Assembly: GCF_029962485.1 (NCBI RefSeq)
Contig: NZ_CP073638.1
Coordinates: 3,038,001 to 3,102,000, forward strand
Source: Burkholderia cepacia
GTDB taxonomy: Bacteria > Pseudomonadota > Gammaproteobacteria > Burkholderiales > Burkholderiaceae
Direction: 5' to 3'
DNA length: 64,000 nt
Of this stretch, positions 36,534 to 37,824 are shown piece after piece. Position numbers and translations under genes: made by a program. Position 1 is the first letter of the stretch; each line of letters starts with the position of its first letter. The notes under the pieces are model-generated. The model was not told the DNA's origin, made no database searches, and was given only the letters and a program-made list of their open reading frames with translations.

Positions 36534-36908
36534 TCATCCGCTCCTTCTCCATACCCCGACGAGCAAACGTTGCACTTGTGCGAGCGTGCGCCTGAAGCGC
36601 TCGCCGCGCCGCACGTACGCGGTCGTGAGCGTCGCTTCGGCCGATCGGTCGGCATCGGTGCCGAGCCAGATGCGCTCGCCGCGCGCGATGCGCAGCACGT
36701 CGCCGGGCCGCACCCAGTAATCGTCGACGCTCGGCGGGCGCGTGACCCACAGCGCCGCGCCATGCGTGCGCAGCTCGGCATCCTGCGACGCGCGCCAGGT
36801 CATCGTCGTGCGCGGCGCGACCGCGAAGCGGATCACGACAGTCGGTAACGCGATCGTGCCGGCGCGGCGCCGATCGGGACGGTCGAACAACTGGCTTGCC
36901 TGGTCCAT
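36534..36908 (-). CDS. DUF2917 family protein, copy A
   Basis: A 124-residue cupin-like protein with the DUF2917 core: FAVAPRTTMTWRASQDAEL, LWVTRPPSVDDYWVRPGD and VLRIARGERIWLG. ATG 36908 (MDQASQ) was chosen because GGAG lies 5-6 bases upstream; the same arrangement occurs in copy B. It lies downstream of a promoter, micro-ORF and intrinsic terminator repeated almost unchanged before copy B. The function of DUF2917 is unknown. Confidence 0.88.
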   Translation of the reverse strand: MDQASQLFDRPDRRRAGTIALPTVVIRFAVAPRTTMTWRASQDAELRTHGAALWVTRPPSVDDYWVRPGDVLRIARGERIWLGTDADRSAEATLTTAYVRRGERFRRTLAQVQRLLVGVWRRSG

Positions 36909-36952
36909 CGTCTTCTCCATTGATTGAGCCGGATGGATGACGCGCACCAGAA

Positions 36953-36985
36953 CAAAAAGGCCTCATCCGTTTCCGGTGAGGCCTT
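36953..36985 (-). terminator. Intrinsic-terminator-like hairpin in the leader of DUF2917 copy A
   Basis: On the reverse strand AAGGCCTCA and TGAGGCCTT form a 9-bp stem with an 11-base loop, followed by a run of five T. It lies between the predicted promoter (37106-37134) and the gene start at 36908, 45 bases before the ATG, so it acts as a potential attenuator. Confidence 0.75.
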
Positions 36986-37011
36986 GTGTGACATGCGGTA
37001 CTGCTCGATTG

Positions 37012-37098
37012 CTAACGCACAAGCGCCTCCCGTGAACCATTCTTTCGAATGTTCATCGAGCAATGAATCGCGACGGCGATGAGCTTGAACGTAGGCAT
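37012..37098 (-). CDS. 28-codon micro-ORF in the leader of DUF2917 copy A (candidate leader peptide)
   Basis: It opens with ATG CCT and closes with GAG GCG CTT GTG CGT TAG (peptide MPTFKLIAVAIHCSM, then NIRKNGSREALVR). The copy B leader has an ORF of the same length with the same first two and last five codons. The ATG lies about 7 bases after the predicted -10, so it would be translated from a leaderless or nearly leaderless message. Real translation is not proven. Confidence 0.4.
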   Translation of the reverse strand: MPTFKLIAVAIHCSMNIRKNGSREALVR

Positions 37099-37105
37099 GC
37101 GAACG

Positions 37106-37134
37106 ATTTTGTTGTCGGGCTGATGTGTTGTCAA
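37106..37134 (-). promoter_or_regulatory. Sigma-70-type promoter of DUF2917 copy A
   Basis: On the reverse strand a perfect -35 TTGACA (37129-37134) is followed after exactly 17 bases by CAAAAT (37106-37111). Transcription would start at about 37098-37100. The same geometry occurs upstream of copy B. Confidence 0.75.
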
Positions 37135-37219
37135 CGACTATTTTCGGGATATGCGCGGATGATCCGTTGCCGCACGTGTGCTGCGTATCGCGAGATCGCT
37201 GCGCATAGCGATGCTTTCT

Positions 37220-37597
37220 CTATTCGAGACTTCGACATCGTCCACTCAGCATGCGGCGCATCTGCGCGAGCGCACGCGCAAGCCACGCGTCGCGTTTCAT
37301 CACGTACGCGGTCGTGATCGACGCTGCGGCGGGCCGCTCGTCGTCGGTGCTGATCCAGATGCGATCTCCGCGCTGCACGCGCAGCACGTCGCCGGTTCGT
37401 ATCCAATAGTCGTCGACGCTGCCCAGCCGCGTGATCCACAGCGTCGCATCGTGCACGCGGATCTCGGCGTCGTGCTGCGCACGCCACGCCAGCGCCCTGC
37501 GCGGCGCAACCGTGAAATGCAACTCGACTCTAGGCAATGCGATCGTATCGGTGCGGCACCGATCGGGGCAAACAACCAGCCGGCTTGCTTGGTCCAT
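37220..37597 (-). CDS. DUF2917 family protein, copy B
   Basis: A 125-residue paralogue of copy A sharing MDQAS, the TIALP segment, VAPRRALAWRAQHDAEI, SVDDYWIRTGDVLRVQRGDRIW and ITTAYVM. ATG 37597 has GGAG 5-6 bases upstream. The stop is followed after 85 bases by the copy A promoter, so each gene has its own transcription unit. Function unknown; the cupin-like fold suggests small-ligand or metal binding, but this is inference. Confidence 0.88.
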   Translation of the reverse strand: MDQASRLVVCPDRCRTDTIALPRVELHFTVAPRRALAWRAQHDAEIRVHDATLWITRLGSVDDYWIRTGDVLRVQRGDRIWISTDDERPAAASITTAYVMKRDAWLARALAQMRRMLSGRCRSLE

Positions 37598-37642
37598 CGT
37601 CATCTCCATCCGTTGAGCCGGGCGGGATGACGCGCACCAAAA

Positions 37643-37675
37643 CAAAAAGGCCTCATCCGTTTCCGGCGAGGCCTT
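37643..37675 (-). terminator. Intrinsic-terminator-like hairpin in the leader of DUF2917 copy B
   Basis: AAGGCCTC and GAGGCCTT form an 8-bp stem (reverse strand) with the loop core CCGGAAACGGA, followed by five T. It is the counterpart of 36953-36985, again 45-50 bases before the gene. Confidence 0.75.
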
Positions 37676-37701
37676 GTGACATGCGTAACTGAGTCTCGAT
37701 G

Positions 37702-37788
37702 CTAACGCACAAGCGCCTCCGGTGATCGCCGCGGGTGGGCGTTCACTGGTGTTTTATGCGCGATGGCGTTGGGCTTGAGCATAGGCAT
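37702..37788 (-). CDS. 28-codon micro-ORF in the leader of DUF2917 copy B (candidate leader peptide)
   Basis: The peptide is MPMLKPNAIAHKTPV then NAHPRRSPEALVR, exactly the length of the copy A micro-ORF with the same start (MP, K at position 5) and end (EALVR). It begins about 7 bases after the -10. Codon composition is unremarkable and no family is recognisable. Confidence 0.4.
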   Translation of the reverse strand: MPMLKPNAIAHKTPVNAHPRRSPEALVR

Positions 37789-37795
37789 GCGAACG

Positions 37796-37824
37796 AGTGT
37801 GTCGTGGCACCGCAGCAATGTCAA
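37796..37824 (-). promoter_or_regulatory. Sigma-70-type promoter of DUF2917 copy B
   Basis: TTGACA (37819-37824, reverse strand) followed after 17 bases by CACACT (37796-37801). The -10 is weaker than in copy A; -35 and spacing are identical. Confidence 0.65.

Follow-up and report, generated by a model that had tools for sequence, protein, structure and literature searches.

The DNA analysed here, referred to below as the window, is a 64-kb stretch (64,000 nucleotides, nt) of the Burkholderia cepacia genome (contig NZ_CP073638.1, positions 3,038,001 to 3,102,000), and its subject is a pair of tandem genes encoding DUF2917 proteins, both on the minus strand. Each gene lies behind its own promoter, leader and intrinsic terminator, and when the locus is read on the minus strand all of these are present as an earlier note on this DNA had described. 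Within each leader is a short open reading frame (ORF) whose end is predicted to pair with the terminator's 5′ arm. We consider it highly likely, from comparison of the sequences, that each DUF2917 gene is under ribosome-mediated transcription attenuation of the trp/his type.

Two DUF2917 genes and their leaders

The features of the locus are as follows; region 1 would pair with region 2, region 2 with region 3 (the antiterminator), and region 3 with region 4 (the terminator).

37819..37824, minus strand: –35 hexamer TTGACA of copy 1, from the sequence and a pattern scan (position 37824)
37796..37801, minus strand: putative –10 hexamer CACACT of copy 1, after a 17-nt spacer; a weak match
37702..37788, minus strand: leader ORF of copy 1, 28 codons and TAG (MPMLKPNAIAHKTPVNAHPRRSPEALVR), with its ATG 7 nt past the –10 hexamer
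37773..37784, minus strand: predicted region 1 of copy 1, from the consensus fold, with a related pairing in the single-strand fold
37708..37719, minus strand: predicted region 2 of copy 1, the 5′ half of the antiterminator (GAGGCGCTTGTG), from duplex energies and hand-given structures
37668..37678, minus strand: predicted region 3 of copy 1 (CACAAGGCCTC), which overlaps the terminator's 5′ arm and would form the 3′ half of the antiterminator
37641..37675, minus strand: predicted intrinsic terminator of copy 1, hairpin 37675-37647 and a T-rich tail to 37641
37220..37597, minus strand: DUF2917 gene copy 1, 125 amino acids, ATG at 37597, PF11142 E 3.6e-16
37129..37134, minus strand: –35 hexamer TTGACA of copy 2, from the sequence and the consensus scan
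37106..37111, minus strand: putative –10 hexamer CAAAAT of copy 2, after a 17-nt spacer and also picked by the consensus scan
37012..37098, minus strand: leader ORF of copy 2, 28 codons and TAG (MPTFKLIAVAIHCSMNIRKNGSREALVR)
37018..37029, minus strand: predicted region 2 of copy 2 (GAGGCGCTTGTG)
36978..36988, minus strand: predicted region 3 of copy 2 (CACAAGGCCTC)
36951..36985, minus strand: predicted intrinsic terminator of copy 2, hairpin 36985-36957 and a T-rich tail to 36951
36534..36908, minus strand: DUF2917 gene copy 2, 124 amino acids, ATG at 36908, PF11142 E 4.7e-14

Both proteins pass the curated cut-off of PF11142 (25.5 bits), with scores of 58.6 and 51.9 bits, and the two leaders can be aligned end to end. 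The terminator stem had been called perfect, which holds for copy 2 and fails for copy 1, where there is one G-U pair (CTCG/TGAG); the gap from terminator to gene ATG is 42-43 nt in both copies, close to the approximately 45 nt first given. The –10 hexamer of copy 1 matches TATAAT at three of six positions and is not among the matches of the generic consensus promoter scan. Both leaders fold somewhat better than their dinucleotide shuffles (z –2.4 for copy 1 and –2.8 for copy 2, with 5 and 2 of 200 shuffles as good). A simple terminator scan of the window listed neither leader hairpin, and Rfam 15 at the gathering score gave no family at the leaders, its sole match in the window being a tRNA elsewhere, with four weak matches below that score. 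The full arrangement – TTGAC, an ATG 35-37 nt on, an ORF of 14-42 codons and a terminator soon after – occurs twice in the window, both times at these leaders, and in none of 60 order-1 Markov copies of it; a looser terminator test again gave two matches in the window and none in 40 Markov copies.

The tandem layout may have a consequence of its own at 36950-37222. In an RNA that reads through copy 1, the leader ORF of copy 2 is not at the 5′ end, so that the copy 2 terminator may double as the terminator of copy 1. At L071 (positions 1093-1247) there is a leader with a copy 2-like 5′ half and a copy 1-like 3′ half, as expected from recombination collapsing a tandem pair.

A reading frame kept with this type of DUF2917 gene

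Leaders of the genus were aligned from 80 places found by BLAST at E 1e-3, of which 78 remained at 1e-10 (L087 and L088 being dropped) and gave 75 distinct rows. The ATG lies 36 nt from the start of TTGACA in 73 of the 75, and all 73 frames end in TAG, a stop used by 5 of 40 long ORFs of the window (chosen by length and base composition). The two exceptional rows, L082 and L086, are relics without the gene and, having no ORF, were set aside for the comparison of lengths and gaps. The remaining frames have 28 codons in 69 rows and 29 codons in four, spans of 87 and 90 nt from ATG to TAG, and every inner gap run is of 3 nt; the distance from TAG to the gene ATG takes seven different values in the same 73 rows, from 100 to 107 nt. 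Third codon positions are the least changeable within the ORF. By this comparison the frame, its length and its stop are kept while the residues drift, as one would expect if the act of translation and the RNA are what counts.

In both window copies the ATG is only 7 nt past the –10 hexamer, which leaves no space for a Shine-Dalgarno site, and the ORF is thus probably leaderless. Given the usual distance from a –10 hexamer to the start of transcription, the position of this hexamer would put the transcript start at the ATG or within a few bases of it.

Two other candidates for what is translated were rejected. A conserved functional or arrest peptide is not indicated by the ratio of nonsynonymous to synonymous change (pN/pS), since 56 of 60 and 59 of 60 column shuffles gave values at or below those observed in the two paralogue groups. 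A mini-ORF GTG-CGT-TAG after GGAGG was discarded because L074 and L083 have GCG in place of its start, and its bases are the end of the 28-codon ORF.

The leader goes with one type of DUF2917 gene. The copy 2 leader region, used as a BLAST query (E 0.01), matched 56 of 65 genomes of the genus, two of them not with full leaders: a 29-nt match in G066 and a relic without promoter and gene in G010. A protein search found a close DUF2917 (E <1e-28) in 54 genomes, which are exactly those with a full leader by BLAST, and a more distant one (E ~1e-22) in G014 and G087, whose leaders were found by the pattern scan. The earlier note had proposed looking for orthologous DUF2917 genes whose leaders lack the hairpin; that check was run and does not speak against attenuation, as the leader is present in 56 of 56 genus genomes that hold this DUF2917 type. 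Among the other nine, G010 and G013 hold relics, and in the remaining seven BLAST yields nothing beyond the G066 fragment.

In two other genera of the bacterial family, a protein profile finds DUF2917 in all 39 genomes searched of the one and in 39 of the 41 searched of the other. From these we took 60 loci, one per genome, in the 30 best-scoring genomes of each genus, so that 18 matching genomes and the weaker DUF2917 subfamilies stand outside the set; the profile was built from proteins behind leaders and some of the genomes had already been met through the RNA model, so the sample is not fully independent. A script finds the leader in 58 of the 60, with 26 to 34 codons and with TAG as the stop in 57 of the 58. 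An initial terminator filter, which passed 43 of the 60 loci (including a chance ORF), was over-stringent and was replaced by one on T count and distance to the gene. As to the two misses, L243 has, by eye, an ATG 37 nt after TTGAC, a 28-codon TAG ORF and a G-U pair in its terminator stem, and no leader was seen at L286. The same script found no leader at 28 loci of other DUF2917 subfamilies (L001-L030 without L004 and L015, assigned to subfamilies by judgement), nor did the covariance model described below or the pattern scan find one in front of the two DUF2917 genes on chromosome 1 of the genome to which the window belongs (L199, L200).

In leader copies that have lost the gene the ORF is damaged: L086 and L150 have GTG for ATG and no TAG, and L082 lacks promoter and ATG. 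The relics at L086 (positions 1470-1629, G021) and L150 (G013) keep the terminator and lie upstream of a small, secreted-looking ORF (MNASRVILALAAAFAVSGNAVACDDPDHDAP). The association of leader and gene, likewise drawn from comparison, speaks for control in cis.

Predicted exclusive helices and the case for attenuation

The end of the leader ORF (GAGGC-G-CUUGUG) is complementary over 11 pairs to CACAAGGCCUC, which takes in the 5′ arm of the terminator. The predicted 2:3 and 3:4 helices are mutually exclusive, and the antiterminator overlaps the end of the ORF. The complementarity is kept with other bases in more distant leaders, as GGGGGC:GCCCCC in L083 and as GGGGCCU:AGGCCCC in L219 and L220, two leaders missed by BLAST that have the same plan in new sequence.

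Partner specificity was assessed from duplex energies in 24 region pairs (23 locus names) and in 17 rows, both hand-picked as lineage representatives from 39 DUF2917-linked matches, and in nine representatives of the loci found through the protein, which include some genomes used before. Cognate 2:3 duplexes are more stable than exchanged ones in the 24 pairs (–23.2 against –19.9 kcal/mol; none of 5000 permutations as good), as they are than non-cognate ones in the 17 rows (–23.1 against –19.8 kcal/mol; 1 of 5000) and in the nine representatives (–20.8 against –18.3; 19 of 5000). Among control pairings, mid:3 reached 841 of 5000 and 1:3 reached 811 of 5000 in the 17 rows; in the nine representatives the values were 3650 and 235 of 5000.

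Folding with parts of the RNA masked, as if by a ribosome, gives the corresponding picture. With codons 1-13 masked and the RNA ending at the terminator loop, before region 4, 12 of 17 leaders gain at least three expected pairs in the 2:3 helix; a mask on the stop codon instead leaves this helix at least three pairs below the stalled state in 14 of 17. For window copy 1 the expected 2:3 pairs number 0.9 in the naked RNA, 10.2 when stalled and 0.0 at the stop, and for window copy 2 12.8, 12.7 and 0.0. Among the nine representatives, seven reach five pairs in the stalled state, six gain at least three, and all nine are at least three lower at the stop.

In the mechanism that we infer (start site, translation, stalling and read-through), the transcript would begin at or near the AUG of the leader ORF, 28 codons long. 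A ribosome that translates this ORF as far as the UAG would cover region 2, so that region 3 pairs with region 4 and the terminator forms, leaving only a short leader RNA. If the ribosome instead stalls in the first half of the ORF it would cover region 1, whose predicted partner in the consensus fold, when no ribosome is present, is region 2; region 2 would then be free to pair with region 3 once this is transcribed, and RNA polymerase would read through into DUF2917. The premature-termination control proposed by the earlier note is thus strongly supported by sequence comparison; its attenuation was right in kind, and the leader ORF and antiterminator, absent from that note, make it a specific, putatively ribosome-mediated mechanism.

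Several observations weigh against this reading. Full-length RNA at equilibrium favours the terminator in 16 of 17 leaders despite a masked region 1, so that the switch must be kinetic, decided by timing during transcription, as is the case in known attenuators. The antiterminator is already formed in the naked RNA of window copy 2, L083 and L164, and the control pairing 1:3 falls to the 235 of 5000 given above in the nine representatives. Single leaders compared with their own shuffled region 2 give moderate values (z +0.2 to –3.4 in 24 leaders), and the antiterminator columns covary weakly within the genus. The 1:2 helix has no partner specificity (880 of 5000 in the 17 rows and 1944 of 5000 in the nine representatives), and for the inner hairpin, in one register, 73.5% of cells are paired. 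The leader peptide has a pN/pS of 1.49 in one paralogue group and 1.54 in the other, there is no codon that every leader repeats, and at L181 DUF2917 is present behind a leader whose frame overruns the usual stop. Consensus folding of the whole leader finds the 1:2 helix, with compensatory changes at one pair in 5 of 41 sequences, and the terminator, and finds neither the inner hairpin nor the antiterminator, both of which were assessed with hand-given structures and duplex energies.

What the leader senses was approached with 19 representative leaders from 85 distinct peptides, against a background of long window ORFs, some of them possibly false. At positions 5-16 Asn is 7.9-fold, Ile 5.1-fold and Lys 4.1-fold over that background; at positions 4-15, at least two Ile occur in 15 of 19 leaders and at least two Ala in 15 of 19 (Ala being common anyway), and at least two Asn in 2 of 19. 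Isoleucine as a single control codon was considered. A version of ribosome-mediated attenuation that we hold as a tentative possibility, somewhat short of probable, is that the leader senses a general slow-down of translation, as under ribosome-targeting compounds or broad starvation, and that DUF2917 is a translation-stress gene. The strong divergence of leader peptides between lineages (pN/pS ~1.5) and a downstream gene that is not a known biosynthetic enzyme point this way, as do the L219 and L220 leaders (MNTRTVLTLSSGRRSVIARRALPGASVR and a near copy), which have no run of Ile or Asn. The Ile pairs in 15 of 19 leaders and the enrichment of Asn, Ile and Lys argue for a narrower signal, perhaps a single amino acid that differs from lineage to lineage, as do related leaders with clear runs, such as Thr before a thrS-like gene.

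The main product could also be the terminated leader itself, a short RNA and/or a 28-amino-acid peptide that works in trans in the manner described for Sinorhizobium meliloti rnTrpL/peTrpL. The terminated leader would be an RNA of ~148 nt with a probably leaderless ORF; it has its own promoter and terminator, and in the part of the source covered the rnTrpL case is likewise a small leaderless mRNA (PMC7298713). That third codon positions change least indicates that the nucleotide sequence itself is held. Yet leader and gene occur together in all 56 genus genomes and in 58 of the 60 outside loci, leaders that lost the gene are degraded, and the peptide sequence is not conserved, so we regard a trans-acting main product as rather unlikely, while noting that such a product and attenuation are compatible rather than exclusive.

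Attenuation by the same terminator without translation, through a riboswitch or a protein-binding leader, would account for the long 1:2 helix and the inner hairpin of the consensus fold and for some compensatory changes. It gives no role to the open frame, the fixed position of the ATG, the TAG or the 3-nt gaps; no Rfam family reaches the gathering score at the leaders; and L219, L220 and the other genera share the plan and not the sequence. We judge it very improbable, a pure riboswitch in particular being weakened by the evidence for the leader ORF. Least likely of all, by a little, is that the terminators merely insulate the genes from upstream transcription without regulating them: the copy 2 leader terminator does lie between copy 1 and copy 2 and would end copy 1 read-through too, but each terminator is downstream of the gene's own promoter and has a matched antiterminator.

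Related leaders and the place of DUF2917

At E 0.1 a covariance model of 41 leaders had matches, the weak ones doubtful, in 34 of 399 genomes from the order, and at E 0.001 in 72 of 200 genomes of the bacterial family, the genus included. Among 64 matches in loci read in detail, DUF2917 lies downstream in 39 and is absent there in 25. A closed ORF of the right size is present in 61 of the 64, and 60 of these have the ATG 35-37 nt after TTGAC; the odd offset, 17 nt in L190, is counted from a TTGAC other than the –35 hexamer. TAG is the stop in 54 of the 61. The three without a closed ORF are the relics L086 and L150, and L181.

Leaders before genes other than DUF2917 have the geometry of the DUF2917 leaders (an ATG 35-37 nt after TTGAC, mostly 24-29 codons, and a terminator) and differ in their codon runs and downstream genes. 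Thr-rich leaders stand before threonyl-tRNA synthetase (ThrRS)-like, isochorismatase-domain and MFS genes, His-rich leaders before YunG and redoxin genes, and others before GNAT genes; at L209 the gene behind a Thr-rich leader is thrS-like, having TGS and tRNA_SAD domains. Ten of the proteins behind such leaders, one or two for each kind, were compared with Pfam, near relatives being judged by their first residues, and the selection is biased in that the leaders were found by a model built on DUF2917 leaders. The sharing of this geometry by leaders of textbook logic supports attenuation as the probable function of the DUF2917 leaders.

Some of these loci deserve mention. In the window's own genome (L125, L201; G000:C2 near 2288551-2288685) a Thr-rich leader of the same geometry (MNARFVTTTTTTTTTAKGGPGGGCTS) precedes a class II tRNA-synthetase-like gene with Pfam core and anticodon domains only, perhaps a shortened ThrRS paralogue. 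At L196 and L197 a Thr-rich leader near that of the ThrRS-like gene precedes an MFS transporter gene (Pfam on L196). The two genes also begin alike (MMDDCDRRVSG / MMDDFDHRVLG), which looks like a capture of the leader together with the gene start. Thr-rich leaders precede isochorismatase-domain genes at L123, L184, L185 and L210 (Pfam on L123, the rest by first residues), and His-rich leaders of the same geometry precede YunG-family genes at L173, L175, L189, L191, L211 and L213 (Pfam on L189, the rest by first residues).

The predicted structure of the copy 2 protein (mean predicted local distance difference test, pLDDT, 80; predicted template modelling score, pTM, 0.62) is a small all-beta fold of eight strands with a helix at the C terminus. 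Foldseek ranks long vitamin K-dependent gamma-carboxylase chains first (E 6e-6; template modelling (TM) score by target 0.12-0.14) and, after them, small cupin-like proteins, among them PpnP and TM1459 (TM by query ~0.5). We read the predicted fold as cupin-like, which names no function.

Attenuators of the trp/his/leu type in biosynthetic operons of proteobacteria have a promoter, a short leader ORF, exclusive 2:3 and 3:4 helices and a gene after the terminator, all shared by the leaders described here (the helices as judged from sequence and energy), for which a 1:2 helix is predicted as well. The DUF2917 leaders differ in that the gene is not one for a known biosynthetic enzyme, there is no clear run of a single codon, the ORF is probably leaderless, and its length is nearly fixed at ~28 codons. 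The class features are given in part in the portion of PMC7298713 covered here, which also describes trpL of the alphaproteobacterium S. meliloti (rnTrpL/peTrpL), a 14-amino-acid Trp leader before trpE(G); the likeness to it is that of a small leaderless mRNA and is not based on sequence. For Burkholderia cenocepacia J2315, 82 5′ untranslated regions (5′UTRs) yielding short transcripts by processing or attenuation have been reported, with neither a leader ORF nor an antiterminator described in the parts of the paper covered (PMC5688073). Within the open literature (titles and the starts of abstracts, subscription papers and supplements lying outside this scope), no such leaders before DUF2917 were found described, and DUF2917 is named in one paper, on iron corrosion.

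A broader proposal, which we put forward with reserve and rate below an even chance, is that the bacterial family has a modular leaderless attenuator cassette – an ATG 35-37 nt from TTGAC, ~28 codons, mostly TAG, and a GC-rich terminator – which came to stand in front of unrelated genes and was re-tuned through exchange of its middle codons, Thr serving the ThrRS-like genes, His those for YunG and redoxin, and other residues the GNAT genes and DUF2917, and that DUF2917, predicted to be cupin-like, is the effector of an unnoticed translation-stress response, with switch and gene in tandem in some species.

The mechanism itself is very probably a variant of known attenuation acting on an unexpected gene. 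DUF2917 thereby gains a regulatory handle, as early stalling of ribosomes in the short ORF very probably turns on genes of this type, and this makes its role testable. The leaders suggest that leader-peptide attenuation in the family extends past amino-acid biosynthesis, and that attenuation may act on leaderless ORFs, which initiate by a different route.

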